64,000 nucleotides of DNA. It comes from Thuidium tamariscinum (taxonomy: Eukaryota; Streptophyta; Bryopsida; Hypnales; Thuidiaceae). The notes under the pieces were generated by a model. The model worked only from the letters and a program-made list of their open reading frames with translations. It had not been told where the DNA came from and searched no databases. The stretch lies in the NCBI GenBank assembly GCA_947034885.2, contig OX344758.2, positions 3,536,501-3,600,500 of the forward strand. The letters are read 5' to 3'. The stretch's first letter is position 1. Every line of letters begins with the position of its first letter. This document shows, piece by piece, positions 20,521 through 39,381 of the stretch. The position numbers and the translations under genes are program-made.

Positions 20521-20548
20521 AAGGCCATATTCGTTAAATTGAGAAAAA
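20521..20548 (+). repeat. left terminal inverted repeat of the large element
   Basis: Starts AAGGCCATATTCGTTAAA. The first 21 bases are the exact reverse complement of 39361-39381. The outer flank is ATTTTT. Confidence 0.75.
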
Positions 20549-21039
20549 ATGGCCATAATGAGAACTTAAGTCTCCTTCATTTCAAAGATAAGTTGTTGAA
20601 GGCAAAGATAAATATTTAACAAGGCCATGAGTACAGAACATTTTCCATGTGGAATGTGCCTTGGATACCAAAAGACTTTGACGAGAAGATCGCAACTGCA
20701 GAAGAGAGTTCCATACAAGGGATTGAAAAATACGAAACAATTACAAAAAAAAATTTTACATTGAAAAATATTCTAAAGATGCTTCAGAACTCATGTATAC
20801 ATGAAACTATTTTCCTCACATGTCTATATACTTCACTTCCTAAGAAATGAAATCCCAAAACCTATTTGTGATTGGTTAGGGTGATGTATTTTATGTCTAA
20901 ATATAAACGGCACATGCTAATGGATGGGTGCATTGAAATTTTTCCTAACCAATAAGTGGTTGCATTATATGAATGTATAGTCTATTAATAGGGATGAATG
21001 TCAACCAAGGCCCTAGGGATATGGACACAAATGTCTCAA
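20549..21039. other. left subterminal region of the element
   Basis: AT-rich, with no recognised gene. A 67-codon ORF at 20647-20850 (plus) has a somewhat codon-like start (MWNVPWIPKDFDEKI) but no known relatives and a lysine-rich end. It could be an exon relic. The region probably also contains the 3' end of the leftward transcript. Confidence 0.4.
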
Positions 21040-21951
21040 CTACCCATTCTTCTTCGGGGAAGCATGGCTATCACTTTCCTCTTGAGCTTTCAGCTTAGCT
21101 AGCCCTCTAAGAATATCCTCGCGGCGAGAAGGCCTAAATTTAGGTTCCACACTAGGAATGGTCCACATCCCCATCTTCATGAGTTCCATAGCCTCCCTAC
21201 GATCACTTCGAGGAACGCCTGTGCTTGAAAGTGACCTGGAATTTTGAGGAGGCCGTTTAGGCAAAGATCTGCAGAGGATATTTACATTAAGATCTGCACT
21301 GGCAGTTGGCCGATCGCCATTCGATCGCCGGTACCCCGCGAGCACAACTACTCGCGATAGAGGCCCTACGAAAGGCGAAGATTCACACCTTACGAGTGTT
21401 GAAGGTGCAGATCCAGCAATGCCGTGCAACTGCTCAGCATCGTCGGCACTGCGGGAAGCACAAGGTACCTTCCTCTTACGTCCTCTCGTCGACAAATCTA
21501 CCCCAACATCCCATTTGACGATTTCAGGGGCTTCGGGGGCATTTGCAACCGGAACATCGTCTTCGTCTCGAAGATCTTCCGCAACTGCTTCCGTGTCCGC
21601 ATATAGTTTCCTATGTACAGCCATTTCAACACGGGGAGTCGGCGACTGGGATCGCAGTCGACTAGGCTTGGAGATTGGCCACTTCAGAGGAGATGGTGAG
21701 CAGACGGGAGTTCTGGGTGGACCCTTGCTCGGTGGACTGTCAACTGCATCATCATCGACGTTTCCCTTAGAGAAGTCGATGGCAGTAGATGCCGCATCTG
21801 TGGCCGAACACAACATAATAGGTCTGGAATCAACAGAAGGCACGCCGCTCCGCTCATCGAATTCGGACGTGTCGGACAGCGTCGCGTCCGATCCGGAAAG
21901 TAAACTCCTAGTTAGTGGCTGGGGACGAACGGCCTTAAAACCTCCTCCAAT
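21040..21951 (-). CDS. leftward gene, last coding segment: basic/serine-rich nuclear-type protein, unknown
   Basis: The frame is open from a good acceptor (TTTTCCAG before 21951) to a TAG-free end at 21040, giving about 300 codons. It starts IGGGFKAVRPQPLTRS and is rich in S, P, D and R. A basic cluster STRGRKRKVP about halfway along looks like a nuclear localisation signal. The C-terminal part (RREDILRGLAKLKAQEE) looks helical. I recognise no domain. No ATG is present at a sensible N-terminus, so it is probably the last exon of a spliced gene. The upstream frame meets a TGA next to the palindrome at 21986, and the phosphatase segment ends in its own TAG at 22164. It could be a separate 3' gene whose first exon I cannot place. 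Confidence 0.45.
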   Translation of the reverse strand: MGGGFKAVRPQPLTRSLLSGSDATLSDTSEFDERSGVPSVDSRPIMLCSATDAASTAIDFSKGNVDDDAVDSPPSKGPPRTPVCSPSPLKWPISKPSRLRSQSPTPRVEMAVHRKLYADTEAVAEDLRDEDDVPVANAPEAPEIVKWDVGVDLSTRGRKRKVPCASRSADDAEQLHGIAGSAPSTLVRCESSPFVGPLSRVVVLAGYRRSNGDRPTASADLNVNILCRSLPKRPPQNSRSLSSTGVPRSDRREAMELMKMGMWTIPSVEPKFRPSRREDILRGLAKLKAQEESDSHASPKKNG

Positions 21952-21985
21952 CTGGAAAAGGAAAAATGCGAAGGAGCCCCTCCCA

Positions 21986-22006
21986 TTATCCTCGAATCAA
22001 AGATAC
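21986..22006. repeat. 21-bp palindromic repeat, copy 1 (imperfect)
   Basis: Left arm TTATCCTCG intact, right arm TCAAAGATAC diverged in the same way as the copies at 35071-35237. It lies in the gap between the phosphatase segment and the last coding segment. Confidence 0.7.
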
Positions 22007-22163
22007 TCAACCAAATGAAGGAGACACTCAAGAATACCACAGCGCAACCAAGATGAAGTTGAAAATGAAAAACATTATATTTCAAATGGATAATATTTAC
22101 AGATGAATTCCAATTCCTCTAAATCTAAAACTAATTCTACAAATGCGAAATCGCACGGAAGAA

Positions 22164-23171
22164 CTATGTCCTGCATCGCTCTGGTTTGATCACTATGCCC
22201 ATCCCCGGGAGCACGTAGTTGCACCCGAAATTCCTAGCCGACTCCCTCAATCCTTCCAACATATGACCCACGCCATACGAGGAACGCATCAACGGGGGTT
22301 GACCTATGCGGTTTGTGTCAACAAAATCACGCAAGCGCCCGGGGGGACAATGTTCACTAATTCGCTTCAGCAAGGGGAGGAGGGCTGACATCAACACTTT
22401 GTCCCCACGATGGAATTGATTCCACGACTCCAAAAATATTGCGTTCCCATTGTTATTCAAGATACTCTTTGCCGGGGAGTCATCAATAAGAATAGTGTTG
22501 TCTGCGTTAAAATACATGGGATCCGTAGGCCGCGTGAACAACCGTTCATCGAGGATTTTCAAAAACAAATGCTTCGTAGGGTTGAGTCCCTCAAAGAGAA
22601 AATTCCCTGGTGAACGCTCAACGGTCTTGCAGTGCTCCTGACCGTATACAACGAAGGCCTCTAAGTTGTTCTTGTAGAGAAACCGGACAATGGGTTCGGC
22701 GTTCTTGTGAACCATGGAGCTCCATAATACAATACGGTTTGCTAATTGGCCGACTTCCCTCAAGAAGTCCCTCAAATTGGGACGAACGAAGATAGCTTTC
22801 GACGCAACTAGCGTGGGAACCCGATCCGAGAAAACAAAGTCCTTTGGATAATGGACAGGTTCACTCTTATACAAGGTCCTATTCTCGCAATGGCAAAGCA
22901 CTCCGTTGAGGTCGAAGACGAGGTTCAACCACTTCTTCGGCCTAACGGGTGCTACCGAGGCAACACTCCGGGGAACTCTCTCTCCACCGCTGCCCGTGAC
23001 TACCTGGTAAAATCAGAAACAAGAGAGAAGTGGCGTTACTTGTTGAAATGCAGACCCAGGTGATCCAAACAACGGCAAATCCCATTGCCTCCCACTAAGC
23101 GATTGCAGAATCCCTTCATTAAAATCATGTTTGAGTGCCAAAGGACGATGCAAATATTTCAGCCCCATGCG
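22164..23171 (-). pseudogene. leftward gene, FCP1/NIF-like HAD phosphatase segment
   Basis: This segment begins with CGC at 23171, after acceptor TTTTGTCCAG, and ends with TAG at 22164. HAD motifs of the FCP1/NLI-interacting-factor type are plain: motif I VFDLNGVLCHC, motif II IVLWSS, then NTILIDDSPAKS. Canonical FCP1 enzymes have DxDx(T/V) in motif I, where the second Asp is the general acid. Here that residue is Asn (DLN), so catalysis may be weak or lost. An in-frame TGA at 23013-23015 interrupts RMGLKYLHRP...SAFQQVTPLLSCF from FYQVVTGSGG. GT and AG signals around it would make an intron of only 36 nt, which is too short for plants. It may be the C-terminal part of the composite leftward gene or a separate gene. 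Confidence 0.65.
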
Positions 23172-23757
23172 CTGGACAAAACATATGCAAAAACAGATGG
23201 TTACCAACGACTTGAATTGAACTCTGTACACGAATATTTATTTTCCGAGAATTAAATTTACATGTGGTAGCACACTTGCTAAAATTCTACCGTCTCTGTA
23301 CAATCCAAAACCACGCCCACTATGTGACCTATACTACAACGAACGATTTAAAACGGGAGGTTTGCCGACGCATGTCAATCACTAACTCTCCACTCCCTCC
23401 TATCAACAGGACGAGACGATATAAGAGTCTCTCACTACAAAACGCAGCAAGCATCAAAGACAGAACAGTATTCATCACTCAGAATTCCCAGAGACACAAT
23501 CAAGACGGTAGGGGTCAGATGTCTGCGGCGATACCTGTCCAAACGCCAACTCCATGGCATCCTCATTGCCATCACCGTAATCGACTTGTTCTTCGTCTTC
23601 GTCATCGGGTGGGTTCTGAGACTCCGCCTCGTAATTTCGAATGGGAGACGTTGTCAGAGGCGGTACTTCTTCATGCACCTGCTCAAACTGCTCATCATCA
23701 GCGATCAGGGAAGCGCAATCTTGCTCCCGATAATCCTCATCAGGAGGGGTATTGGAA

Positions 23758-23778
23758 TTATCCTCGACCCGAGGATAA
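23758..23778. repeat. 21-bp palindromic repeat, copy 2 (in coding frame)
   Basis: TTATCCTCG and its complement CGAGGATAA around ACC. On the minus strand it reads NYPRVEDN within the acidic tail. The flanking A/T pair extends the symmetry to 23 bp. Confidence 0.9.
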
Positions 23779-23937
23779 TTCACACAAGCTGCAAGTCCAG
23801 CAACGAGACTCGTAGTGCAATCAGTCCTTTGTTTGGGATTGGGTTGCTTGTCGTAAAGAGGAAGGGCCAAATCCTATGAGTCGTCAGGAGGAGGGGAACA
23901 CAATTGCTTGGGAGATGCAACGGAATGAGGGAGATCT

Positions 23938-24120
23938 TTATCCTCGCCTCGAGGATAATTGGCAACAACCGGAGGAGAACGATTTTGCCTTCTGGGGGAG
24001 GGCGAGGGGGTCACTGACTTATCCTTGCCTCGCGGATAATTTGCCACAACAGGAGGAGAGCCTTTTTTCTTTCTGGGGGAGGGCGAGGAATTGAATGATT
24101 TATCCTCGCCTCGGAGATAA
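23938..24120 (-). repeat. three palindromes within an 81-bp (27-codon) tandem repeat
   Basis: Palindromes at 23938-23958, 24019-24039 and 24100-24120 are exactly 81 bp apart. The unit between them encodes SPSPRR/KxxxSPPVVA. The first is a perfect palindrome apart from its centre. The other two carry substitutions in one arm (CCTTG, CGGAGA). The array expanded in whole codons and so kept the frame. Confidence 0.9.
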
Positions 24121-25219
24121 TCCCCAACTCTAGCAGAGTCCAACTGTACTGACGAACCATTCTTATGCGGCCCATCCGCATTTGCATCATGAGAGAGTGC
24201 TGCACTCTTAGCATTTTCCGCCTTTAGACGAAGGTTCTCCTCCTTCATCCTCTGCAACTCAGCCCGCATATTCTCCTTCTCCAATGCCTCCTCCCTCCGA
24301 ACCCTGGCGATCTCCTCGTTACGTTTTTGCCACTAATCGGACTTCTCTTGTTTCACCTCCAATGCCCTTGGAGCTGAACCGCTTTGAGAAATCCCTGAAT
24401 TCTTTTGCGCGTCAGCGGTAGTAACCTCTGCCAACGTCCCCTGATCTTGCGGTGCAGATGATGTCGCAGTGTCCGGGATGGGTGCATCGTAATTCAAATG
24501 CCTGAGGTCATCGTAAGAGTCCCCGTCGCTTAAATCTATAATTTCCTTGCCCTCGTAATCCGGGGCCACCTTCTCAGACGCCATCTGTATTTCCTCTTCA
24601 ATCACTGAAGACGACAAGCGCTGTCGGGGTCTCACCTCAAAATCATTGGCGGTGAGCTGCAGATCTGAATTCTGAACAATATTGACGTTTGTCCCGAATT
24701 CGTCAATGCCAAGTTCCGCTCCATCTCCCTGCGGCACGGAGTCCTCCTTCTCAAGAGATCCCTCAATGTCCTCTTCCTCGTCCTCCCCAGTATTGTCCAC
24801 TACTGCCTCCTTCCTCCTTTGCAGGACCACTTCCTCCCTGACCACCTCCGCGGGTTCTTTCCCTTCGGGAGAACCATCTTTCTCTGATGAGTCTGGCGTG
24901 GACTCAAAGTCAGGTTCAGGGGACCGTAACAAACGTGGCCGAACGTAGTTGGGCTTATAAGGCGAGTTGTCGTGAAGAAAGTCATTCACGTCCGCTGCGA
25001 TACCACGCCTCACAAGTTGTAGAAGCTTCTCCCTATGGTGTCTATCTGCTACAGCGTAGCAGAACATGCCGCAAAGCTGCAATACACGGTAATCGAATTA
25101 ATAAAGGACCAACTTCTGTATGAACCCAGGCTTACCAAAGAAAACAGAACTCATAAAGAGAGTACCTTTCACCAGCAAATAACCATATCGATTTCATCAA
25201 CTCTATACACCCACAGAGA

Positions 25220-25357
25220 TTATCCTCGAGACGAAGATAAATGATCAAACCCAGAATTTATCTTCAACCCGATGATAAGCTAGTCTGCTTATCATTGACA
25301 TTTTGACTCAAAATGGCTTCTGTGAATTTCACTGGTTTATCCTCGACCTGAAGATAA
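25220..25357. repeat. three 21-bp palindromes in one intron
   Basis: Copies at 25220-25240, 25258-25278 and 25337-25357 lie in the intron (25385-25077) between the methyltransferase-like exon and the next exon. They are separated by unrelated AT-rich DNA, and each has one or two arm mismatches. Confidence 0.9.
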
Positions 25358-25385
25358 TAAAACGAAAAACGAGGAAGATGATTAC

Positions 25386-26714
25386 CTTTGCGGCAAGTAA
25401 AAACTTCGATCCCCCGTAGATGCTGAGGACGTTCTCCCCCCTCGTAGCAAAACTTTGAAGAACGTCGATATAGAACTCCATCCTAAGCTCGCTAGGATGG
25501 GATCTGAATTTGGACTCGGTATTAAACCGAAGGTCCTTGTAGAAGGTGCCGTCGGAAGTGGTATACACCTTCTTCAAAGAACTGTGCTCTATCGGAGCAC
25601 CGTCTTTGTCTTTTCGAATTAGAAAGAGAAGCTTCACTGGAGGAGGGTCCTTCCGCGCTGTGGAGCTGTTCAACTTCTCAGCCTTGCACTCGATGTAGAG
25701 AGCGGTCTTCACCACATACTGCTTCATTTTCTTCTCCGCGTAAGCTAAAGCCTCCTCGTATTTGAAAGCATTGGTCGGAACTCACATCCACACATCTGGA
25801 CTGACCAAAGTGGGCCTCATATGGTCGGATAAAAACTTTAGAAGCGGCAACAGCGGATCAGGTTGTTCTGATCCCGGAATCGGTCTGGGAAGTTGTCTGA
25901 AGTCAATGACTCCAAAAGGAAGCCCTCGCTTTTGGTAAGTCCAAACGTGACTGCTGCTGAAGCCTTGAGGAAAGCAATCGTGCCCACGAATCTGCACTTC
26001 CCCTTGAGACGGCTTCACGCTGCTCTTGAGGAGAAGAAATCTCTTCAAGAGAGGGAAGACTGTAGGAAACACCTTGTCCTTATAGTCCACAGCCGTCTTC
26101 AACTTCCCCTCGTTGGTTAGACGCTTCACGAAGAAGGACGCCGGCAATGCGTTCAGCAAAAAATTCCAAGAAGTTGAACTGAAGAGGTGTTTCTCTTTCC
26201 ACTCTTTCCATACACCGTCCTTTACATCTCCTTTGCGGTCCTTCAGCCTCAAGCTCTTGTCAATAGCCATGAACTCCTCGAGAACTACCTTCTTCCGCTT
26301 TCGACGCTCTACCCAGTCAGCATGGGACATATTGTCTTCAACCAAAAACTTCGACTTCCCCACTGAGACTTTCGGGTATGGCAAAGAGCGACCTAGAGTT
26401 TTCCCTAGGAGATGGAGCACATACTCATAGAGATCGTGATCTGTGAAGTGCCCTAAATGCTTGAAGAATTCTCTCTTCAGCTCGAAAGTCTTGAGGTTGA
26501 AATTCTTGGCTTTCCGATATGGCTTCCCTGTGCACGGATCGATAAGAGTCCCTTCCGTGTGGCGCTTCAGAAACGTCTCCCATAACAGGTACGTCTCATC
26601 ATCCAACGTTACTATTCTGATTTCGTTTTTTACGTCGGATTCTTTGTTGACTCTATTCCCGTCTTTCTCCGAATTCACGCTCTGGTATCGAAATATCAGA
26701 GCCTCTACAAATTT
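25386..26714 (-). pseudogene. leftward gene, central segment with degenerate DNA-methyltransferase-like end
   Basis: The exon starts at 26714 (acceptor CTACAG, then KFVEALIFRYQSVN) and ends at donor GTAATC after 25386. It is one continuous frame except for TGA at 25782-25784, between SPDVW and VPTNAFKYEEALAYAEKK. The long N-terminal part (LIDPCTGKPYRKAKNFNLK, FTDHDLYEYVLHLLGKTL) is unfamiliar. The last ~40 residues, MEFYIDVLQSFATRGENVLSIYGGSK continued by the next exon, are laid out like the C-terminal SAM-binding end of N4/N6 DNA methyltransferases (helix, 'GE.VL', 'GGSK', then 'AK...AVAD'). The GSGT-like glycine motif is degraded and I see no NPPY-type catalytic motif. A non-catalytic relic is the best reading; the assignment is an inference from fold pattern. 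Confidence 0.45.
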
Positions 26715-26785
26715 CTGTAGCGTAGCAATCCAAATTGACATTAGTATTGATCCTAAACATAATCTGATGACACTTTGTATTACAG

Positions 26786-26890
26786 ATATCCTCGACCTGA
26801 GGATAATCGACACAGTAATGAGCTCAACCAGAAACTGTGATGAAGAAATTAAGACTCTCGATACATGCATTATCTTCGACTCGAGGATAA
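26786..26890. repeat. two 21-bp palindromes at an exon-intron border
   Basis: Copies at 26786-26806 and 26870-26890. The second directly follows the best donor of the ParB-like segment (TGTTTT then GTAATTATCCTCG on the minus strand), so part of the palindrome would form the start of the intron. Read through instead, it again gives NYPRVEDN in frame. Confidence 0.85.
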
Positions 26891-26899
26891 TTACAAAAC

Positions 26900-27950
26900 A
26901 GCATTAGCTGGTAGGCATTCTTGTCGAACTTGGAACCATTATTTCTCCTCTCCGGGTCTGATTCCACAACAGTAGGTCTCTTGGAACTAACCCAGATCGA
27001 CCGACATAATCAAATTTGATTGCCCCAGGTTGGTTGACTATGCTTTAGATGGTTAGTCCTATTGTACCAGCCCGAAATTTGAGTAAGTTTCTCCGCGCTT
27101 AGGCTCCACACTATCGTGGCGTCCCACGTCTGGAGTTCCTGTTTTCTTTTTTCACAGCAACCACCTTTTTGAAGCTGCTTCGATGCAGTGATGCTGTGCT
27201 GCCCATTGATGATGAAGAAGCTCCCATCTTTAATTTCATCCCAACTTTTCGGTTGCTCCTTTAAAAGACTTTTTTTCTCATCAATGGGTGTGAGGCAGAT
27301 TGTCTGACGCTGCCTCTTGTCCAAGAGACCGACCAAGAATTCCTTTGTTTCAGTGACAATCTTTTGCTCCAACTGCTTGATAATGTATTTAGGCCTTGCT
27401 AAGAAGCATTTGTCAATGGATACAGTGAAAGTCTGTGGGTCAAAAATAAAGCAATCCTTGCAGTTATTCCAGAAGTTCTCCTGGTATGCTGCTGCAAGCT
27501 CGTACTTTTTGATAGGTTGGTCGTCCACAGCCGCTGCTGCCGCCACGGTTGTTAAAGCTGACCCTAAACTACCAGCCGCTGTAGCTCGACTCAGTGCCGG
27601 CGCTCTCTAGCGCTTACCGCTACTCTCCCCCACCTCTGTAGTGCTCGATTTACGCTTCCTAGGCTCAGCTCGAGCAGAACTGGGTCCGGAGGTCCCTCTC
27701 CCAACTGATGCAATCTGGGACGCTAGGTGGGACACCTGCCTATTCTGTGATACCCCTCGACCTGTAGCACCTGACTTCTCGACGTTAGTCAAAGCATATT
27801 TCTCCAGATCGCGTAGGAGTAAGTTCAGTCGTTTCGCCATGGATCCAACGTCTTTTGTGAGCCATGGATGAAACTTCCTTGTCATCTCTCTCCAGGGTTG
27901 TTCTACCGGACAGTACGACTTCGCGACAGACAGACGTCACGCAACGTCTA
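26900..27950 (-). pseudogene. leftward gene, ParB/DGQHR-like segment with two in-frame stops
   Basis: The frame opens near 27950 (KSYCPVEQPWREMTRKFHPWL), passes ATG at 27885, and reaches the KNAYQ end near 26900. It is interrupted by TAG at 27607-27609 and TGA at 27010-27012. Sequence on both sides of each stop is in the same frame and looks like protein (after TGA: LCRSIWVSSKRPTVVES). The recognisable part is DGSFFIINGQHSITASKQL, which resembles the ParB/DGQHR nucleotide- or nuclease-fold signature (G-Q/H-H-R/S), followed by WDATIVWSLSAEKLTQISGWYN. ParB-like domains occur with DNA methyltransferases in phages and mobile DNA, which fits the next segment. I see no helix-turn-helix of canonical ParB. 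Catalytic competence is unknown. Confidence 0.5.
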
Positions 27951-28095
27951 GTAGAGCCCTCGTGATGTCTCATTGACTAAAAATCAAGTTGACTTAAAAA
28001 TAAATCATTAGAAATTTAAAATTTTGACATATATAAGTTGGGTTTCAATTAAGTGTTTCAATTTTATGAATACATATTACATTCTTCATTTAGGT

Positions 28096-28680
28096 TCATA
28101 GTAATAGTAAGATTTTTATTTTTTTGAGCTGCTGAAAATGAACTTTCGCGACGAGGTGGGACACCCTTCGTAACAAGTTGTCACCATGACACGCGACGTT
28201 GGACGTCATACACGACATCCAAACCCATAAATATGTTCGACAAGACAACCCTGTCTCTCTCGCAAGATTTTCGTTTGCTGCCTCCTGCAGAGACTTGATG
28301 AGCTCATCCAGATCGAAATTGGCTGTGTTGGCATCATGGTGGAAGACAATCGAGTGAATGTGCGGGAGTTCCTCGCCCTTGTCATTGACTACTTCCAGAT
28401 TCAGGACGACATATTCTTTTTGATGATCCTCCACGAATGCAACCTTCTCACTCACATTGAAGAGTTGGAAGTTCGCCGCCCCCTTTATTTTCAGACGAAG
28501 GAATACGTAATTCTTGAATCTATTGATGCCCATAGTCCATGATTCGACAACTGACTTCAGCTTCCACAAGTCGCCATACTGGTCCTCCATGTCCGCGAAG
28601 AATGGCGCATCTCCTTGCCACGTGAATGGCTCTATGAATGGCCTTGTTGCCGAGTAGTCGTAATCACCTTCGACAGCCAT
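28096..28680 (-). CDS. leftward gene, N-terminal exon, unknown function
   Basis: ATG at 28680 begins MAVEGDYDYSATRPFIEPFT. The segment up to about codon 140 (FDLDELIKSLQEAANENL) has a composition unlike the AT-rich background: a string of beta-type stretches (NYVFLRLKIKGAANFQLFNV, EYVVLNLEVVN, PHIHSIVFHHDA) and then a helix. No family is recognised. The 3' splice to the ParB-like segment was not resolved. The frame runs on to 28096, but the end (KKIKILLLL) is probably intron. Six palindromes lie just upstream, in the probable 5' region. I take this as the start of the leftward transcription unit because of the clean ATG and the direction of the following exons. Confidence 0.5.
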   Translation of the reverse strand: MAVEGDYDYSATRPFIEPFTWQGDAPFFADMEDQYGDLWKLKSVVESWTMGINRFKNYVFLRLKIKGAANFQLFNVSEKVAFVEDHQKEYVVLNLEVVNDKGEELPHIHSIVFHHDANTANFDLDELIKSLQEAANENLARETGLSCRTYLWVWMSCMTSNVACHGDNLLRRVSHLVAKVHFQQLKKIKILLLL

Positions 28681-28729
28681 TTAGATTCGCACAATTGCAA
28701 TTTTTCAGACCGTGAGTATAGTGTTCATA

Positions 28730-29000
28730 TTATCTTCGGTTCGAGGATAATTTTACTTTCTTTACTGGCCCATGCCCGGAGACTATGATCATTGCTCTTT
28801 AGCCGAGCATTATATTCGTCGAGCGGTTTGAAGCATTATATTGGTCGAGTAGTTTGAAGCATTATCTTCGCGTCGAGGATAAACTACCATCTCAGAGGAG
28901 TATAGGATGTTTCGTTTTGATTAGCAAGTTGTTAAGTCGTAGGATTGATAGAGGATGTGAAGTTCGTCCTCTCCGAGTATTATCTTCGCTTCGAGGATAA
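28730..29000. repeat. three 21-bp palindromes upstream of the leftward gene
   Basis: Copies at 28730-28750, 28862-28882 and 28980-29000. All have left arm TTATCTTCG and right arm CGAGGATAA, so they share one T/G mismatch position, while their centres differ (GTT, CGT, CTT). Confidence 0.9.
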
Positions 29001-29099
29001 TTGTCTCGTGCGGTTTTCAGAGCTTTGGTTCAGTCCTGATTGTTTTTCTTCAGGGGCTGTGTGGGTAGTTCAACTTTTATGTTGTCGAATGGAGGACAA

Positions 29100-29162
29100 C
29101 TATCTTCGAGCCGAAGATAGTTATCTTCGAGCCGAGGATAATTATCCCCGACTCGATGATAA
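29100..29162. repeat. three back-to-back 21-bp palindromes
   Basis: Palindromes at 29100-29120, 29121-29141 and 29142-29162 abut with no spacer. The first is CTATCTTCG-centred, the second is standard, and the third has two changes. This head-to-tail packing suggests a duplicable 21-bp module. Confidence 0.92.
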
Positions 29163-29289
29163 CTCTTGCTTTCAGTGTACTACCACCTGTATTCCTGAAT
29201 ATTCTGGATGTCCACTACGTGGAAACCCTAATTTCAGTCTTCTATTCTCTTGCACTATTGTTTTTGTTTTATTGTTGTTTGCAGACTAC

Positions 29290-30258
29290 TGAATAGTTTC
29301 AAATACGTACAATGGAATTACCTATAGAATGAGGTACCTGGGATGCTGATACTTGTACCAAAAGGACAGAAATTAGAGTCTGCGATGTCAGGAAAGTGAG
29401 AGTGAACGCACTTGAAATTGAAGACACTGTGCATGTTCTGCTTTCTGAAGATTAGCATAAAATTCAAAAACAAGACGCAAGTTCAATGCAATGTTCAATT
29501 CAGAGACGCACTGTGCAAACCATGCAACAGAATTCTCACCTAGAAATTCACTGGAAGCTTAAGGTGCAACCTCGTCACGCAAAATCCTCACCGAAAGCTT
29601 GAGCTGCTACCTTGTCACGCAAACTCCTCACCGAGCAAACACAGCTTCCGGGAGCACATCCGCAAGCAACAGTGCGACCAAATGCGGTATGTCGACGCCC
29701 ACACCCAACCTCGCATGCGCCTCCCAAACACTCCTCCGGCACGCTAACGCTCCGAATTGAGGTGGACCACGGCGTGCGAAGTTTGCAAACTAGGGCGGAC
29801 CAAGATCCAAAGAAATATAAAGCAAACAACAATGAAGCCGCGAGGCGATGCACACAAGACCAGCAACAGGAAAAAACAAACAGACGCTCAAACGACACTG
29901 AGGCACGGCAGGCCCAACTCTCACGGAAGCAACTAAAGAAGACACGTACAATCCTGTACAAGGAAACACGCAATTGTCGACGGCGCGCAACTCCGAATGC
30001 AGGAAACGGCGACACCCACGGAGCACGGCGCGCGGAGCGAGAAAGCACGAAAAAAAAAACTGCGAATGTGAAACCCTAACCTCGGACAAGAGGTAAGGTT
30101 GCTGGTGAAGCCACGTGGGTTGCACCCCTTCACCGCGACATTGGGAGCCTACGACCATGCTTTTGGTCCAATGACTAGGAGGGGCTCAAATTCTTCTAGA
30201 AGGGGGGGGTTCATTTCTTTTCAATGAGTCTTACCATTCTAGGGGGTAGTGGAAGCGT
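29290..30258. other. GC-richer central block between the divergent genes
   Basis: No palindromes after 29162. A 158-codon minus-strand frame (29575-30048) and an overlapping plus-strand frame (29612-30079) are open, but both are arginine/cysteine-rich and look like chance frames of GC-rich DNA. The block may contain the leftward promoter and leader. A short direct repeat of 'cctcaccgaaagcttgagctgctac' type sequence is present near 29550-29620. Confidence 0.4.
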
Positions 30259-30470
30259 TTAACCCTTCAATGACGCTGAAGCCATTTTCTGGTCAATGAC
30301 CGTCAGGGTTTCTTTTTATATAGGACCAAATTGCAATCATTCATCCTTGGAATTACGGGTGGCAACAAAGATCTTGTAATATAGTGCTTTGACTTCCAAT
30401 GTGTGTTTCTACATTTTTTATATAACCTATGATTCCGACGGAGGTAGCATCCGTTTTCTTGAATGAGAAA
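30259..30470. mobile_element. degraded piggyBac-like MITE nested in the large element
   Basis: Begins TTAACCCTTCAATGACGC and shares internal landmarks with 56305-56535, for example 'tactttgacttccaatg' against 'gctttgacttccaatgtg' and a right part 'ccgt..tcttgaa'. Its right terminus has decayed (no intact GGGTTAA). Confidence 0.5.
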
Positions 30471-33400
30471 CTTCTTTTTTATAAATCTTTAAAGTATTGT
30501 ACAGCAGTTTAGGTTCTTACCTATAATACTATATATGAGATGTTGTTCTCTACAATGTTGACAAACGATTCCTCAGTATCTAAGAACGTAAAACACTAAA
30601 GCCCTTAACTATGTTTTTTGGCAACATAGCAATTTTGCACAACTCACCATGAATGGAGTTGAAGGTTTATTTCTTTGAAATTTCCACACAATATAGGTCT
30701 AAGGAGTACCTTCAAGGCCCAAAAACTTTTGTAACTTTTGAATATACGATTGACAAGTTATGGCTTGATATGTTACTTACTTTGAATTGCAGGCAAGTAA
30801 GGCAACAAGAATTTTTTTTATAAAATTCCTTTTTCTAATCATAAAAATTCAAAATTGGTTCATTAGATTTTTATGTATGTGGGAGGCTTTGAATTATTCC
30901 ATATCAATAAATTAATTAAAATATATATGAGGAATTTAAGTTTGGGGCAATTTCTGGGTAGGTGTAGAACCTTTTTTTTACGAAAAAGTTTCAAATTCTT
31001 TATATAATTCAACTTTCAATATTTATGAAAAGAAAAAACATTCGGGAAACATTGTATAATTATGACAATACTTTCACTATTGAGATTGACATTTTTCATT
31101 ACTCTAAGTAAATTGTTCACAATTTTGTACTTTAAAGCATTTTCTACTTCTTTCTACTTAGTGTTTTTTCCCTATGTGTTATACAATTCCAAATGATTTG
31201 AAATTTTTTGAACATATAGCCAACTTGCATTGTAAGATGAATTGAAAGAGTAACCGTCATTTTGAGTATGTTTTCATACAAATATAACCTTGTAAAGGCT
31301 AGGTGCCCGGATTTTTACAAGGATAAATACATGATTTATCTCAGTTAACTACAAAATCCTATGATTAAATATGTTGGAAAGAAACGCACTTGTATTAGAA
31401 ATCGCAGTTCCAGAGTAATTTGGGTGGAAACATAATTAGAATAAAACCTTTGTAGGTGAAATGTCCAAGTTTATTTTCAATAATGAAATACTAATGCCAA
31501 ACCCATTCATTTTAGTATTGAGCTATGTGTACTTTGTGAAAAATTGAAATTGCTTTTAAGAAGTTCAACTTTTACAAGACGTCTTTTCTTGCTAATTTTG
31601 TTAGTATGAATTATTTCGAAGATTAAAGAGTTGTACTTCTGTCTTTCCGAAAGTTAATAATATTTAATCATCTATTTGAAAGACCTCAAATGAATTCATA
31701 AAACCCTAAACTATAGTCAAAGAAGAATTTGAACTGAAGGACTAACATTGGAATAAGAAGTCAACTATGGAGTAATTGCTAAAGATTTGGAATTTGGTTT
31801 CAGATATATATATGTCACTATTCGAATTCTTTGTTGTTTGTAATAGTCTAACCTCATTATCTCAACTGTCTTCAGGTTTCAAGAGTATTTTTGCACAATT
31901 TCTTGTTTGATATTGTACCCCGTTTTCCATTTTAAAAAAATACATGCACTAGTTGTACCGAATCCAAAGTTTTAATAGAACTACAACTTCCCAAAGTATC
32001 CCCAAAAATTAAATTGAATAGCAGAACCTAATTATAATGAGAAAAAAAAATAGATTTATAAACCTATGAAAATGTGGGTGGTTGGCATTACTTATTTATA
32101 GATTCAATTTACAACCAAAATAACAGTGAGTGTGCTAAACTGGTAGAAGGTGGATTCCCTATCTTTTAGTTGCAGTTCACATTTTTTGTAGAGACCCAAG
32201 CCCCTAAATCACAAAGTTTGATAGTATAATATTTGTATACAATGGGTAAAGCCGTTTTCGTTTCAATCATGGCTTTTTGGTACTTCCTAATATTTATAGG
32301 AATTGCATGTATATGGTAGTCTTTTGTACCACGCCATGTGAAAAATTCAATTTATGCATTTATTATTTATTATTTAGTATTTGGTGCATGATGTTATGAG
32401 AAAGAATGCTTTCTTTTAGAATACATGGATCGAAACTTCAAATGTTTTCCTTTTCCATATTTCCTTTCTACCTCTTTACTCTTCCCAAATTTGTAACTAA
32501 TGGTAATCAACATAAACAAAAAAAATAATTCAAGTTATGAACTTATAGAGTGGCAAAATATTGTCATTTTTTGAATTTTCTATTTTATGTAAATTTTTAG
32601 GAAATCAAATGAGGGATCCTAAATACTCACACATGATGTGTAAAGGTTATTCTAAAGAATTTCCACAAGGTGAAATTTTCAGAGAACTTGTCACCAAACA
32701 GTATAAGGTAAAGGGAATTACATGTACAGTATCAATTAATTAATTATTTTTTTATATCTGTTCATAAGTTTTCTAAGTGAAATAATATAATATGTGATTT
32801 TGAATCCAAATTTTAGGATATTGAAGGCTCATCTCTAAGACTTTTAGTTCCAAAATATTAAGATTTGCAATTGAAATTCTGAATTGAAGTCACAATCATT
32901 AATTTGGAAAATGACATTTATACTATTAGTCTTCAATCCTAAAAGATCCTTATAATCACATAAAAAACTTGTTTCCATGTTGTAGTATTATTTGGCTACA
33001 AAGTAATCTTTACCCTCTAATCTTGTATATTGTGAATTTATATGATATTCATCTAGTATGTTGATGGAGACATAAGCAATAGTTTACTTTGGAAGATTAT
33101 AAAAGTACTAGAGTATGTTGAAATGATGTTTATTTGTACTAATTTTAAAATTTGTTCTTTTGACAATGTATAAATAAATTTCACAATAGAGGGTCAATCA
33201 TGGTGAATTTGAAGTACACAATGGTTACTTTTTGAAATGAGAGAAGTTTTAGAAAGACTAAAAAGAATAGGAATTTTTTTAATTTTAAATTTACCTTATT
33301 TTTTCATTTATGAGTTGCATCTAATTTTAAAAAAGGCATGGAGAATCACAAAGTTAGACTACCTTTTCATTTTAGACCCTAAAGAACCCTAGTCTTTGAT

Positions 33401-33900
33401 GTAATCTTATGCATTCAATGTTTGTTTGAAACATGAGCCTACTTTGCCATTTCATTTTTAAAAAACTGATCTCCAAAAAACACAAAGATTCAACTTTGTA
33501 GATGTGAGATTTGGAAATATATAAGGAAAATAAGTAAACTTTAGGATTTTAGGAATTAAACTTAAGCATACTATAAGACAAAAATCAGGATGATAGGATC
33601 AATTTCTCAAATTCCAGAGGAACAAGTAATAGATGTTGGTGGGCCGCCAAAAAAGATGGAATTTTTTTAAGACAATGAAAAGTTACCTTTATAGGGAGAG
33701 GAAGATAAGAAGACACGTAGCCAATATACACAAAAGCAGGACGCACAAATAATTTGGAATGTTATGATTTCCAAATCTGGACAGCCGTTGAACTTTGTAC
33801 CTCTGGCCCGGATGTTATGCCGGCTTAAAAAAAGGTTGCGGCATAAAATTCCGCCAGGTGGATATCGATCGTGCAAGGGAATTCTAAAATTCCACGGGAT
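30471..33900. other. 3.4-kb AT-rich stretch without palindromes inside the element
   Basis: No gene seen. Composition matches the host intergenic DNA rather than the element's coding parts. It includes a dispersed-repeat copy (30595-30790, related in inverted orientation to 19930-20140). It may represent later insertions that split the element's central spacer. Confidence 0.45.
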
Positions 33901-34310
33901 TTGGTGAAAAGTTATTCGGCAATCAAGTTGAATACCATTTAAAGGTGGTTCAGAATTTCAGAGCCCCTTAAACCAGGTACTTCTCCCCTACGCCCGAAGA
34001 ATCTTCACGGTTTGAAATGCCGTCACCTTTCCCGCCCACTTCATCCCACCGCCTTCATTCCATCGTCTTTCTCCCCAAGAATGCCATTGCTTCATTTCTG
34101 CCTCATTTTCGTGCCTTTTGAAGACGCTGCTCCGCCGGCGCCTTGCGGTTCTGCATTCCGTTTTCTTCTTGCATTTGCCGAAGTATTTCTACTTACGCAC
34201 GTCCCGATTGTTGTATGTTCATGTAGCACTTCTTTTACTCTGCTGCACTTCTTCTCTTGTTTTAGGTGTCTTCCATCTTCCTTAGTCCGTATGATTTGTT
34301 AATGTCACAG
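33900..34310 (+). promoter_or_regulatory. probable promoter and 5' leader of the rightward gene
   Basis: A pyrimidine- and GC-rich block unlike its surroundings, with a 96-codon open frame (34012-34302) that has no family resemblance. It ends in CTTGTTTTAGG-type sequence just before the 56-bp repeats. It is best read as a leader exon of the rightward ORF, with an intron to near 35.9 kb. No TATA box or start site is fixed. Confidence 0.35.
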
Positions 34311-34313
34311 CAC

Positions 34314-34705
34314 ATTTCGTTTCTGAACTTACGATTCCTGTTGTTAGTTTGTGTTAATCTTCTCTAAGTATTTCGTTTCTGAACTTACGATTCCTGTTGT
34401 TAGTTTGTGTTAATCTTCTCTAAGTATTTCGTTTCTGAACTTACGATTCCTGTTGTTAGTTTGTGTTAATCTTCTCTAAGTATTTCGTTTCTGAACTTAC
34501 GATTCCTGTTGTTAGTTTGTGTTAATCTTCTCTAAGTATTTCGTTTCTGAACTTACGATTCCTGTTGTTAGTTTGTGTTAATCTTCTCTAAGTATTTCGT
34601 TTCTGAACTTACGATTCCTGTTGTTAGTTTGTGTTAATCTTCTCTAAGTATTTCGTTTCTGAACTTACGATTCCTGTTGTTAGTTTGTGTTAATCTTCTC
34701 TAAGT
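34314..34705. repeat. minisatellite: 7 nearly identical copies of a 56-bp unit
   Basis: The unit begins 'atttcgtttctgaacttac' and contains 'gttagtttgtgttaatcttc'. Copies start at 34314, 34370, 34426, 34482, 34538, 34594 and 34650. The near identity of the copies means recent expansion. It has no spacers, so it is not CRISPR-like. Confidence 0.95.
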
Positions 34706-34876
34706 ATTGATACCACAACATGTTTGTTTTTTTCTTGTACGTGTCGTATGTGTCTCGCGAAAGCATTGAAACATGAGCGAGTTCATTATGCTCTTGTCTG
34801 TCGTGAGAGTGGAAGGCTTGCGAAAATAACGCCGTGAAATCTGGAATACTGTTTCAGACAAAAGAACTCCTAGAAT

Positions 34877-35018
34877 TTATCTTCGCCTCGAAGATAAAGT
34901 GTGAACTACCCTATCCTCTCCCCGGTGATCAAGAAGTACTTAACCTTTCCGGGAAGACAATACGAGAAGTATCCTCGCCTCGAAGATAAACTAGTACTCA
35001 TCCTTGACTCGAAGATCA
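34877..35018. repeat. three 21-bp palindromes upstream of the rightward ORF
   Basis: Copies at 34877-34897 (perfect arms TTATCTTCG and CGAAGATAA), 34969-34989 and 34998-35018. The last one has changes in both arms (TCATCCTTG, CGAAGATCA). Confidence 0.85.
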
Positions 35019-35237
35019 ATTGAATAGTATCAGTACCTAGTGGAAATATTGGATAATATACTTTCTCCATTTATCCTCGACTCAAAGATCAATTGAATAG
35101 GATCAGTACCTAGTGGAAATATTGGATAATATACTTTCTCCATTTATCCTCGACTCAAAGATCAATTGAATAGGATCAGTACCTAGTGGAAATATTGGAT
35201 AATATACTTTCTCCATTTATCCTCGACTCAAAGATAG
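35013..35237. repeat. 73-bp tandem repeat (3 copies), each with one palindrome
   Basis: The unit runs from 'aagatcaattgaatag' through 'cagtacctagtggaaatatt' to the palindrome. Palindromes lie at 35071-35091, 35144-35164 and 35217-35237, exactly 73 bp apart, and all carry the same TCAAAGAT right-arm variant. A diverged copy of the same unit lies at about 35390-35471. Confidence 0.92.
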
Positions 35238-35348
35238 ATGAAATGTATGGAGACTGAATACAGCATCAAGTAATATCGGATTATGCCGTAACAAGACAAT
35301 TAAAAGTTCTTAAATTCAGTAAACACATACAAGTATACAATACAAGAA

Positions 35349-35471
35349 GTATCTTCGCCTTGAAGATAAACTAGTACTTATCCTCGATTCGAGGATAAGT
35401 TGAATAGTATCCATACCTAGTGGATGAATTGGATAATATACTGTCTCCATTTATCTTCGAGTCGAAGATAG
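35349..35471. repeat. three 21-bp palindromes
   Basis: Copies at 35349-35369, 35378-35398 and 35451-35471. The middle copy is perfect and extends by one C/G pair on each side. The 34969/34998 and 35349/35378 pairs share flanking sequence (aagt...aaactagtact), so a two-palindrome block was duplicated. Confidence 0.9.
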
Positions 35472-35590
35472 ATGAAATGTATGGAGACTTAATACAGCAA
35501 CAAGTATGATCGGATTATGCCGTAACACGATAATCAAAAGTAATTAAATGCAGTAAACACATAGAAGTACATACGTCCTTACTACTTCAG

Positions 35591-35927
35591 ATATCTTCGA
35601 GTCGAACATAATTTATTCTTATGTGAACCCTCTACAGAAATGTAGAAGAATATCTTTTTGGGAAAAAGACATTAAGAAGTACGAAATAATTACCTTTCCT
35701 TACTTATCCTCGAATCGAGGATAATTGTGACATGGGTTATATTTGTCACCGGTACTCAAAACATTCCTCTATTTCATTGTGCAATTTTGATATTAATTAT
35801 TCTGATGGTTAATTTTGTTTGTTATTTTTTGGGGAGTGTTTCAGATTTGGTCAACTGTATGAGTTGCTTTACTGGATTAAATGTTCAGAAGATTTTGCTG
35901 AAGAATTTATCCTCGAATCGAGGATAC
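35591..35927. repeat. three 21-bp palindromes just before the rightward ORF
   Basis: Copies at 35591-35611 (ATATCTTCG, right arm CGAACATAA), 35704-35724 (perfect) and 35907-35927 (last base changed). The last lies 41 bp upstream of the start codon. Confidence 0.9.
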
Positions 35928-35967
35928 ATTTCATTCTCTGACAAATGATGCTCTATGTTGCGCAAAA

Positions 35968-38814
35968 ATGGCAACCCCCGAGATGAGTGAGTTCACAGGA
36001 TCTTTGCCAACGTTGCCGGATGGTGTTTCTGCTTGCGAGGGGATCCCTCGATCTTCTTGGATCACTAAAGGCGTTACTTTGACGAATGAAGCTGGAGTTG
36101 AGGTAGCAAGAGCGATTTGCCACAACGTCGATGCGTCCCTTGTGATTGACATGGACGGGAATCCACTCGGAGATGACCGTGTTGTAGTTCAAATCGCACA
36201 ATCTCTAAATGAGGTTGATGTTCCATCTACTTGGATGTGGTCCATGCGATCGTGGCCCATTTCACGTGTCTTCCTTCGAGGTGCTAGTCTGTATGATCAT
36301 GACCAAACTCACATATTCAAAACTGCAACAACTGCATCAGGTCGGCGTGTTCGAACAGGCGTTCGAACTTATGAGAGCTCTCGTGAGATAAAGGAGTCTG
36401 CAAGTACACCAAAGAAAGAAGCTCTTTTAATTACTCGAGCCATTTCAGAGGTGTCCACGGTGGTCTGTTGTAGGCAGAATTGCTTGCAGCCATTTCCTCG
36501 TGGGGAGATTCAAGCCATACGAAACCAACTGTATGTTCAAGGTGGTGTTTACAATCGTCAATCTTATTTGCTTGGTGTACACAAGCAAATCCACCATGAC
36601 TCTAATGGAAGGGAGATGATTACTTTAGCATCTCGTGAGGTTTGTCCTACAGCTTGGTGTGTTATCCACAGAGTTCATAAATCTACCTACTACAGGTACA
36701 GAGAGCAAGCAAGAAATGGTAAACAACCTGAGCACCACGGAAATGTTGGCTTGAAGAAGCCACGCACTCAAACATTGCAAGCAACCGCCACGCTTCGATT
36801 AGTTCTAGAGAGGAGTGCGGACCAAATGCCTCACAAATCAAGGACTCTTCCATCTGGAGAGAAAGTTCCTTCGATGGTCCTCCCTTCAGCATTTCGATGG
36901 AGTGAAACATTGCCTGAGATTAATAGCATCAATTCCTCCTTCCAATTGAAACATGTTTCAGCAAGTGGATTGAACAACATCCGTCGTGCTTCTTTTCCAG
37001 AATACGCTCCCAAAGCTCGTGGGGACAGTTTTGCTCGCTGTGGGCAATGTGATAGATTGAAGCAGTTGAAGAATGCATGTACTCCACGTTCGCATGCTCA
37101 AGAAGTGTGGACTAAAAAACTGAAAGTTCACCTAGCAGGGCAACAAGCACATCGGGAATTGTATTATGCCAATCATTTGACGTCTGAGAAGTCCCCCGAC
37201 AAGATGCTCACCATAATTCATGATAAAATGGATCACTCTAAGACTGCTTCTCCTCATTTCTCTCATAAGAACAAGGGCAATGATTCGTTCATGAAGATGC
37301 CACTTTCTGTTACAGGCATGATTGCGCATGGACATGGAGATGTTCGGTACGCGCACTATGGTCTGGATATCTTTCCAACAGACTCAAACCACACAATTGG
37401 ATCTATTGCAAAATTGTTGCGTGATTTGGAGTCTGAACCTAAAGTTTCATCTCAAAAGGTGTTTGAGAAGGATGATCCTATTCATCCTTTATCAGTTGCA
37501 ATTTTAGAGGGGTCACAAATCTGTGAAGACTCACTTCCTCCTTGTCCTCAGGAAGTCATTCTAGCTCAAAGTCTTCCTCCAACATTGACACTTCAACTTG
37601 ATAATGCATCAGGTGACAACAAAAACCGTTGGGTTTTTGCATTTTGCTCTCTACTTGTCTATAGAGCAATATTTCGTGAAATCTACATCAATTTTCTCAT
37701 TGTTGGATACACTCATGAAGACATCGATGCTCTTTTCGGTCGATGGAGTACTAAGTTAAAGACAAATGACTACCCTACAATTCCAAGGTTGATGAAGTCC
37801 TTCATGGATTGTGAGACACAACCAGTGATTCCACATTTCATTGAAGAGGTTCCTGATTTCAAAGGCTATGTAGAAGGTTATTTGCATACAGGTGATGATT
37901 CTTTACAAGGCCATTCTCAAGCCCAACAATTCAAATTTTACAAAGACTCCAATGGATGGCCATTGATGCAATACAAGATTCTTTGCACAGATAGTGATTG
38001 GCTGCCGATTGAAGGTGGAGGGATTCGATTATGGAAAGAGACTGCAGATGGGCGTCCAAAAGTTCCGAGGGGTACTCCGAAACCATTGGCTCCCCAACAT
38101 ATGCGTTGCTTTGATGAGGTTATGAAGGGTTTAGATGGCTACATTGATTTGTGGAGTACAATGGCTAATCAAGACTTGTCAGGAGAATTTCGAAGGAAGA
38201 TTGAGCCGGTGAAAAAGTATTGGGAAGGTGTGCGAAATGCATTACTTGAACCACTTGTAAGGCGGGAGACCTTGCGAGATGGATTTTGGCCGCATTCAAT
38301 TACCTCCATTGAGGAGGTAGATCACTACCTTGACAATGGCACAATGCATGAGGAGTTTGCAGAAGATGCTCCTTTTGTTGGACGAAGACGTGATCGTCCA
38401 CTTCCTTCATTTCGTGTTGGCCGTGATGTGTATGCAGGTTATTTTGTGGCTGTGCGTCCTGCTGATGGTGATTTGCGTCCATTTTGGCTTGCTCGGGCAT
38501 TGACAAATCCTAGTCCCGATCCTGCGCATGTTAATTTCATTCAGCTACAGTATTGGACACCTACATCTTTTCAACACATTGATGAGAACACCTATACTGG
38601 ATGGAATACTAAACAAGGGAATGGTTGGAGCGAAGATAAGGCCATATCTTCGAGTTGGGTACACATTGATTGCATCATGACTGGATGGAAGCCACATGTG
38701 AGAGCAGGAACTTCGGATCCGAAGATCAAAATTCCCAAGAATCAAGTGGCTATCATCAAAGCATCAGTACATGCATATGTATCCAACGAAGACAACAATG
38801 CATCAACGGCGTGA
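35968..38814 (+). CDS. DUF7869-like protein, candidate transposase of the element (948 aa)
   Basis: A single intact frame from ATG at 35968 to TGA at 38814; the next in-frame stop upstream is TGA at 35899, so this is the first possible ATG. An N-terminal region contains CCRQNC (about residue 167) and a zinc-knuckle-like FARCGQC...C (about 355). The core has IIHDKMDHSK (about 415), HGDVRYAHYGLD, LQLDNASGDNKN (about 541) and VGYTHEDIDALFGRW (about 580). These match the pattern of the DUF7869 family as I know it, found in uncharacterised proteins of plants, animals and protists. The three conserved acidic sites (D in HDKMD, D in LQLDN, E/D in HEDID) are spaced like a DDE/RNase H-fold triad; that is my inference. 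The C-terminal part (DVYAGYFVAVRP, WVHIDCIM) resembles a small reader or SH3-like module. Codon use differs from the AT-rich host DNA around it. Confidence 0.72.
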   Translation: MATPEMSEFTGSLPTLPDGVSACEGIPRSSWITKGVTLTNEAGVEVARAICHNVDASLVIDMDGNPLGDDRVVVQIAQSLNEVDVPSTWMWSMRSWPISRVFLRGASLYDHDQTHIFKTATTASGRRVRTGVRTYESSREIKESASTPKKEALLITRAISEVSTVVCCRQNCLQPFPRGEIQAIRNQLYVQGGVYNRQSYLLGVHKQIHHDSNGREMITLASREVCPTAWCVIHRVHKSTYYRYREQARNGKQPEHHGNVGLKKPRTQTLQATATLRLVLERSADQMPHKSRTLPSGEKVPSMVLPSAFRWSETLPEINSINSSFQLKHVSASGLNNIRRASFPEYAPKARGDSFARCGQCDRLKQLKNACTPRSHAQEVWTKKLKVHLAGQQAHRELYYANHLTSEKSPDKMLTIIHDKMDHSKTASPHFSHKNKGNDSFMKMPLSVTGMIAHGHGDVRYAHYGLDIFPTDSNHTIGSIAKLLRDLESEPKVSSQKVFEKDDPIHPLSVAILEGSQICEDSLPPCPQEVILAQSLPPTLTLQLDNASGDNKNRWVFAFCSLLVYRAIFREIYINFLIVGYTHEDIDALFGRWSTKLKTNDYPTIPRLMKSFMDCETQPVIPHFIEEVPDFKGYVEGYLHTGDDSLQGHSQAQQFKFYKDSNGWPLMQYKILCTDSDWLPIEGGGIRLWKETADGRPKVPRGTPKPLAPQHMRCFDEVMKGLDGYIDLWSTMANQDLSGEFRRKIEPVKKYWEGVRNALLEPLVRRETLRDGFWPHSITSIEEVDHYLDNGTMHEEFAEDAPFVGRRRDRPLPSFRVGRDVYAGYFVAVRPADGDLRPFWLARALTNPSPDPAHVNFIQLQYWTPTSFQHIDENTYTGWNTKQGNGWSEDKAISSSWVHIDCIMTGWKPHVRAGTSDPKIKIPKNQVAIIKASVHAYVSNEDNNASTA

Positions 38815-39360
38815 AGATGTTTATTTTTTAGTTACAAATATTAGGTAGCTATTACTAGAAGTATTTGGTATGATTTATTATTTGTGGAAAAAAATTTTAA
38901 AAGCATAAAAAGTTTTCTAGTAGAATTAATAGTTTTTATATTATTTTGGTAGTGAGTGAAGAAATATTTACAAAGATTTAGTCTGCAAATTATTTCTTAA
39001 ATTGATTGTATTGATATTTTCTGAATATTGAAAGCAACAATGTTGCATCCTATTAAAATTTTGTGTTTTTCATGTCTCCACTATATTGTTTGATATGTGG
39101 TGGTTTATTTTTTTAATTTACATTGTCAATGTTTGTTTGTTTGAAATGCAAATTTAGACTTGCTATGTATTCTTTGATTGTTTATTAATTTAGAACTCAA
39201 TATGTCTATTGTGAATTCTTCATATTATGCTTCACATCTCATTCATTTCTAAAATGAATTTGGCATCTCATTGTCTTAATTAATTGAAATGTCTCAATTT
39301 AAAGAACACTTTCACTTTCTAAATTTAGGCTTGCAATTAAAAAGAGATTGCACATTTTCC
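38815..39360. other. right subterminal region of the element
   Basis: AT-rich, non-coding, presumably the 3' UTR and polyadenylation region of the rightward gene. 'ctcaatttaaag' near 39293 partly repeats the inner end of the terminal repeat. Confidence 0.4.
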
Positions 39361-39381
39361 CAATTTAACGAATATGGCCTT
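39354..39381 (-). repeat. right terminal inverted repeat of the large element
   Basis: The last 21 bases (39361-39381) are the exact reverse complement of 20521-20541. The outer flank is TTTTC. Confidence 0.75.

Follow-up and report, generated by a model that had tools for sequence, protein, structure and literature searches.

Organisation of the locus

We analysed a window of 64,000 nucleotides, i.e. the whole stretch C10:3536501-3600500 of the source genome (363 Mb). It contains an element of 18.9 kb, at positions 20521-39381, with two divergent genes, A and B, and an array of 21-bp palindromes (Table 1). The element is bounded by 27-nt inverted repeats that are 96% complementary. The outermost 21 bp of these are perfect and correspond to the 21-bp repeat that a preliminary description had placed around the coding blocks. 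The coding blocks stop 519 bp (position 21040) and 567 bp (position 38814) inside the left and right termini, as against the approximate 520 and 570 bp given there. The ~27-bp element ends read AAGGCC[AG]TATTCGTTAAATTGAG.

Two other features were observed around the element. An inverted repeat pair with 79-83% identity lies at 20000-20127, outside the element, and at 30591-30717, inside it; this is probably another repeat family, adjacent to and nested in the element. Minus-strand matches to DUF547 and Lzipper-MIP1, which are plant families, at 42047-47382 are ordinary plant gene pieces; these neighbouring matches led us to regard the host as a plant.

Table 1 Features of the element and of its insertion site, in window positions.
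Feature	Position	Strand	Basis
Left copy of the 4-bp target-site duplication (TTTT)	20517..20520	.	reading of end pairs
Left terminal inverted repeat	20521..20547	+	inverted-repeat search and genome copies
ORF C, ~318 aa in other copies, without known domain; 5' border approximate	21040..21978	-	copy comparison, Pfam
Palindrome upstream of ORF C, 1 site	21986..22006	.	motif scan
Gene B exon 4, HAD/NIF phosphatase-like domain	22164..23003	-	ORF, Pfam, alignment
Gene B exon 3, acidic/coiled linker, in-frame palindromes, one stop in the window copy	23535..25076	-	borders via other copies
4 palindromes in gene B exon 3, three within 81-bp tandem units	23758..24120	.	motif scan
3 palindromes in gene B intron 2	25220..25357	.	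motif scan
Gene B exon 2 of 443 codons; the window copy has one TGA	25386..26714	-	genome matches
2 palindromes in gene B intron 1	26786..26890	.	motif scan
Gene B exon 1 with IINGQH motif, one stop in the window copy; 3' border approximate	26908..28680	-	copy comparison
362-bp insertion in gene B exon 1	~27892-28254		not present in three close copies
6 palindromes upstream of gene B, three head-to-tail at exact 21 bp	28730..29162	.	motif scan
12 palindromes upstream of gene A, some in 73-bp and 234-bp tandem units	34877..35927	.	motif scan
Gene A, 948-aa DUF7869 protein, reading frame intact	35968..38814	+	ORF, Pfam match, copy comparison
Right terminal inverted repeat	39355..39381	-	inverted-repeat search and genome copies
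Right copy of the 4-bp target-site duplication (TTTT)	39382..39385	.	reading of end pairs

Copies and mobility of the element

A search of the source genome with the element ends returned further copies: the left and the right terminal 120 bp each have at least 40 matching places (the best 40 scored of 69 and 64 candidates, respectively). Exact copies of the 19-bp terminus AAGGCCRTATTCGTTAAAT number 56 in the genome, against 0 for its reversed control. The two ends are separated by 17-22 kb at many loci, and some pairs reach 66 kb. Among the 20 end pairs read, 16 are flanked by an exact 4-bp target duplication, two by a duplication with one mismatch and two have no convincing duplication. The duplicated letters mostly vary by locus, with TTTT, ATAT (twice), ATTG, CACT, CTAG and GGGT among them.

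Uninterrupted sites were found for one copy, at C11:16.05 Mb. Its flanks, joined with one copy of the 4 bp, align with 8 other loci at 81-99% identity, along 191-194 of the 194 bases; these empty sites are paralogous and lie in a tandem-like repeat, and the empty-site evidence covers this one copy. When the flanks of 11 copies were joined, none of the sequences compared in that test spanned the junction. A ~170-bp tandem repeat related to these empty sites is present near contig ends, at C3:15292-16997 and C9:24847535-24850464, and is possibly a subtelomeric satellite.

Internally deleted copies, which the preliminary description had named as strong support, and miniature copies were not seen with exact ends, no facing pair among the 56 exact 19-bp ends being closer than 17 kb. 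Left-end matches that stop at about base 93 were considered as miniature derivatives; they include sister subfamilies with full-length copies, several of them read whole, and are therefore not evidence for deleted copies.

The 18.9-kb element is thus one large mobile unit, as had been proposed, and its mobility is fully supported by the many copies, the 4-bp duplications and the empty sites. Chance or artefact is ruled out by the copies of the ends, the target duplications, the empty sites and the shuffle control of the palindromes given below.

Gene A

The protein encoded by gene A matches one Pfam family only, DUF7869, with an E value of 7.7e-45. Most of its length is matched at no fewer than 48 scored places in the source genome (952 first-look candidates), with 62-100% identity, and 13 of these 48 places are stop-free. 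The DUF7869 domain itself has at least 150 matching places (the best 150 of 855 candidates). It was found in none of 14 control genomes, a weak control, the ten named ones being all prokaryotes, and no mention of DUF7869 was found in the literature searched. A PDB search with the A protein gave no meaningful match to solved structures, and a weak scan of viral contigs, by only 2-6 peptide patterns, returned no relative of A.

Three stretches, DKMDHSKT, LQLDNASGDNK and HED, are identical in the five A proteins aligned and, read by eye, may correspond to a DD(E/D) triad. These motifs and the context of the gene make it likely that gene A is a transposase. A 56-bp unit is repeated in seven perfect copies upstream of gene A, at 34314-34708.

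Gene B and ORF C

Comparison of copies showed that gene B is a single gene on the minus strand, with four exons separated by GT-AG introns. In the copy at C7:17.71 Mb, 1640 codons, one of them a stop, precede the end of the gene. In the window, gene B is broken by stops and by the 362-bp insertion in exon 1, and this copy of the element would depend on other copies. ORF C may be a separate gene or a further exon.

The preliminary description had read this region as a ParB/methyltransferase/HAD gene. The HAD part was upheld: exon 4 matches Pfam PF03031 above the cut-off, with an E value of about 1e-17 (1.6e-17 in one scan), and the dullard-like NCBIfam profile with an E value of 9e-10, under the cut-off of that profile. 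The catalytic motif of the NIF/FCP HAD phosphatases is DxDx(T/V). The six copies aligned all present DLNGVL at this place, in which the second Asp is an Asn, and hence depart from the catalytic motif. A PDB search with the HAD part gave four matches with E values of 0.18-0.67, two of which are phosphatases.

The ParB part was not confirmed by profile. One of the two copies scanned gave a PHROG ParB-like match in exon 1, sub-threshold with an E value of 0.044, and the Pfam scan of the B protein, done with one copy, gave no ParB match. The search with PF02195 returned no match in the source genome, against matches in 10 of the 14 control genomes. Exon 1 carries IINGQH, which by eye we take to be a ParB-like motif, in all six copies scanned; the copy at C7:7.67 Mb presents IINDQH. 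A ParB assignment for the N-terminal half of B is plausible on these sequence features.

The methyltransferase part found no match in any profile collection used for B (Pfam, PHROGs, NCBIfam and PDB). Exon 2 itself gave none in Pfam, PHROGs or NCBIfam, scanned with one copy each, nor in the PDB with a five-copy profile. A DPPY-type motif is absent from exon 2 in the six copies examined, and FxGxG is absent from its expected C-terminal position; the sole pattern of the latter type, VSGSG at residue 279 in one of the six, is away from that position. An active methyltransferase in B is not supported by these sequences.

The PDB searches with B exon 1 and with B exon 2 gave no meaningful match. 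Additionally, scans by 2-6 peptide patterns, which are weak, found no relative of exon 2 in viral contigs and none of exon 1 in prokaryote contigs, and the phage comparison gave no match better than E 6. An origin of genes A and B from a virus or phage was set aside on these scans and comparisons, which is a weak exclusion.

Conservation of the two-gene unit

B exon 2 has at least 96 genome matches, with 41-100% identity, and the HAD exon at least 139, with 43-100% identity. The association of the two genes was analysed with 95 B exon-2 matches, one fragment being dropped. A match to gene A lies within 30 kb of at least 63 of these 95, head-to-head in 61 of the 63, compared to a mean of 6.1 and a maximum of 12 under random placement. 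The other 32, among the matches listed, have no scored A match within 30 kb. The HAD exon lies 1.5-8 kb downstream, on the same strand, for 76 of the 95; among the matches listed, 112 of the 139 HAD matches are near an exon-2 or A match and 27 are near neither.

Between subfamilies, the dN/dS ratios of the two genes are 0.05-0.28 overall. For gene A they are 0.07-0.10, and 0.13-0.17 in comparison with the lineage at 62% identity. For gene B exon 1 the ratio is 0.10; dS is saturated in 17 of the 21 comparisons of this exon, and 2 of the 4 unsaturated ones are between subfamilies. Exon 2 gave 0.05-0.11, with dS saturated in 14 of 21 comparisons and with 5 of the remaining 7 between subfamilies, and the HAD exon gave 0.11-0.28. 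ORF C gave 0.23-0.42 in the six pairs of four copies. Recent pairs of copies presented relaxed ratios, 0.2-0.7, and 2.7 for gene A in the C7-C8 pair at a dS of 0.003, which we read as decay after insertion. Judged by these sequence ratios, genes A and B are under purifying selection between subfamilies, and the A-B unit is old and selected. As gene B is both linked to A and selected, it is a conserved working part of the element and not a passenger.

The dS values between the copies at C7:17.71 Mb and C2:6.20 Mb are uneven (0.39 for A, 0.99 for B exon 1, 0.85 for exon 2 and 0.21 for the HAD exon), which suggests recombination between subfamilies. The copies are also unevenly distributed. Contig C11 (17.5 Mb, 4.8% of the genome) is strongly enriched, with 31 of 95 B exon-2, 16 of 48 gene-A, 47 of 150 DUF7869 and 57 of 139 HAD matches, counted among the matches listed. 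One possibility is that C11 is a sex or accessory chromosome that does not recombine.

The palindromes of the element

The 21-bp palindrome is built of two TATCNTCG half-sites with 3 bp between them. If up to 3 mismatches to TTATCYTCGNNNCGARGATAA are allowed, the window contains 28 sites, all within the termini as first described, and the 45 kb of the window outside the element contain none; with up to 4 mismatches, 29 of 29 window sites are within the termini. In twenty shuffled versions of the element (mononucleotide shuffling), 0.1 palindromes were found on average. Several palindromes are held in tandem units, of 21, 73, 81 and 234 bp.

The 11 copies of the element that were scanned all contain palindromes, 16-31 per copy, and the placement is the same: upstream of A, B and ORF C, in introns 1 and 2 of B and in the exon-3 linker. 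At up to 3 mismatches, these 11 copies are free of sites over the ~1.4 kb next to the left end and the 3.4 kb next to the right end; one site with 4 mismatches in the window copy lies 1.04 kb from the left end.

Genome-wide, exact TTATCYTCGNNNCGARGATAA occurs 465 times and the relaxed motif TATCNTCGANTCGANGATA 1225 times, the reversed control being 0 for both. The 50 relaxed sites listed are all on C1 up to 23.07 Mb. An A or B match is found at no more than 20 kb from 46 of them, although such zones make up 1.85% of this stretch of C1; the other 4 are far from any listed A or B match. At the two diverged loci read (L057 and L059), whose B exon 2 is 40-41% identical, both introns of B named above still contain palindromes, which differ from the relaxed motif by 0-3 mismatches. 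One letter of the half-site is variable: in the window element it is C in 28 half-sites, T in 24 and A in 2, in the lineage at 45% identity it is C in 18 of 18, and at three loci with a B exon 2 that is 40-42% identical it is A, C or G and never T. The palindromes are therefore specific to the element and conserved in placement, with one half-site letter that drifts between lineages.

Relation to known systems

The termini are inverted, shared and dispersed, the target duplication is fixed at 4 bp and empty sites exist, as in TIR (DD(E/D)) transposons. The target duplication of Sola1 transposons is of 4 bp, the length observed here. As this duplication and the layout of the element fit Sola1, membership in Sola1 is likely, on these two features and not on protein comparison. 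A Sola1 of Physcomitrella appears in the table of a review (PMC9033089). The Sola2/Fanzor chimeras, in the available passages of their description, also combine a Sola transposase with a second gene and have a 4-bp, AT-rich duplication in Sola2, but the second gene there is Fanzor1 and not B (PMC3627910).

The preliminary description had presented the element as undescribed, whereas its kind has been described in Ectocarpus in 2025, as Sola1-1_Ec32, a giant Sola1 transposon of 21.5 kb (PMC12477816). According to the available parts of that paper, the transposase of Sola1-1_Ec32 and a large accessory gene are encoded on opposite strands, and ParB-like and amino-methyltransferase domains are reported for the latter (PMC12477816). 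The element studied here differs in that the host is a plant, in that B is ~1640 aa long and ends in a HAD/NIF phosphatase-like part (for 76 of 95 exon-2 matches), and in that no profile recognises a ParB or a methyltransferase part; furthermore, the parts of PMC12477816 available make no mention of a palindrome array. Likened by description and layout, the element is a variant of a kind known from algae, and its palindrome system looks new: palindromes and HAD fusion were not found described in the titles, abstract starts and passages that made up the literature searched.

VANDALs are MULEs, and we know of no sequence relation between VANC21 and the present element. The likeness to VANDAL21 of Arabidopsis lies in a second transposon gene and in a family-specific motif that is dense in non-coding parts, often in tandem repeats. 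VANC21 removes methylation and binds such a short motif, which is dense in non-coding VANDAL21 sequence (PMC5735166), and its targets form tandem repeats and, like the protein, vary between related elements (PMC5735166, PMC10398659; passages available). As far as these passages go, VANC21 recognises YAGTATTAY, whose copies all point the same way within an array, in contrast with the palindrome here, and binding and hypomethylation are shown for VANC21, whereas they would be predictions for the present element. The dense and family-specific motif of a VANC-type system was found here, with some sites also in exon 3.

In the bacterial ParB-parS system, a ParB protein and its palindromic sites share a replicon. 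The present element likewise unites palindromes with a putatively ParB-like protein, but the ParB match is sub-threshold (E 0.044), no ParA-like gene was noticed and no partition role is expected.

A model for the element, and alternatives

The palindrome is element-specific, regulatory in position, tandemly multiplied and changing between lineages; the explanation that fits this best is a docking site for a protein that the element itself encodes. Gene B is a better candidate for this protein than gene A, because it is a fixed partner gene, has a partial likeness to a palindrome-binding family, and the sites avoid the ends, on which a transposase acts. The drift of the motif does not single out B, as A diverges between the same lineages too.

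The reading that we prefer, with a probability of about one half, is that of a giant cut-and-paste transposon of autonomous type and Sola1-like build, in which B docks on the palindromes and keeps the element expressed, in a VANC-like manner. The transposase A would recognise the ~27-bp ends and insert the element with 4-bp target duplications. Gene B, transcribed opposite to A, would encode a large element-specific protein with a putative ParB-like N-terminal half, a middle that is perhaps a decayed methyltransferase fold and a HAD/NIF phosphatase-like C-terminus. A dimer of B would bind the 21-bp palindromes in promoters, introns and the one linker and, once bound, would sustain expression of the element in the face of silencing by the host, or regulate the element, in the way VANC acts on VANDALs. 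Both the binding by B and the anti-silencing outcome are inferences.

A more specific version is tentative, and we hold it to be possible rather than probable. It would be a self-recognition system common to the whole family of this giant land-plant transposon. A ParB-derived, HAD-fused B would load onto the dispersed palindromes as onto parS sites, spread or cluster over its own element, and shield the element from silencing or coordinate its expression, protein and code drifting together.

The idea that the palindromes are methylation targets, and that B is an active N4-cytosine or N6-adenine methyltransferase marking its own element, has been offered for Sola1-1_Ec32 with its ParB-like and amino-methyltransferase domains (PMC12477816, passages available). 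For the present element it is doubtful, since B has no methyltransferase profile match and exon 2 of six copies lacks the DPPY-type motif and an FxGxG at the expected place. The conserved CG and GATA of the palindrome would suit such targets, and the end of exon 2 (ENVLSVYGGSKFLLAAK) resembles motif I by eye.

Many internal binding sites occur in En/Spm-type elements. The co-occurrence of gene A with the motif would likewise be consistent with palindromes bound by transposase A as internal enhancers of transposition, but sites that, at up to 3 mismatches, avoid both ends of all 11 copies and that sit in introns and promoters make this unlikely. Sites of a host transcription factor, exploited for the expression of the element, would account for the clusters upstream of both genes; we consider this improbable, as a host site is expected at host genes, whereas 46 of the 50 sites listed adjoin A or B genes, the window has none outside the element, and the letter drift tracks element lineages. 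Finally, RNA hairpins for small-RNA processing or splicing, which the 9-bp arms, the 3-nt loop and the location of several sites in introns could recall, are very improbable, as the palindrome is symmetric in both strands and occurs also upstream of both genes, partly in exact 21-bp arrays, and inside exon 3.

If B does dock on the palindromes as preferred here, the element would represent a second, independently built, transposon-encoded system of sequence-specific self-recognition beside VANC, with a palindromic code. The many diverged lineages within one genome would make the co-evolution of protein and site directly testable, and so would be the role of the ParB-type accessory genes in the giant transposons of algae.
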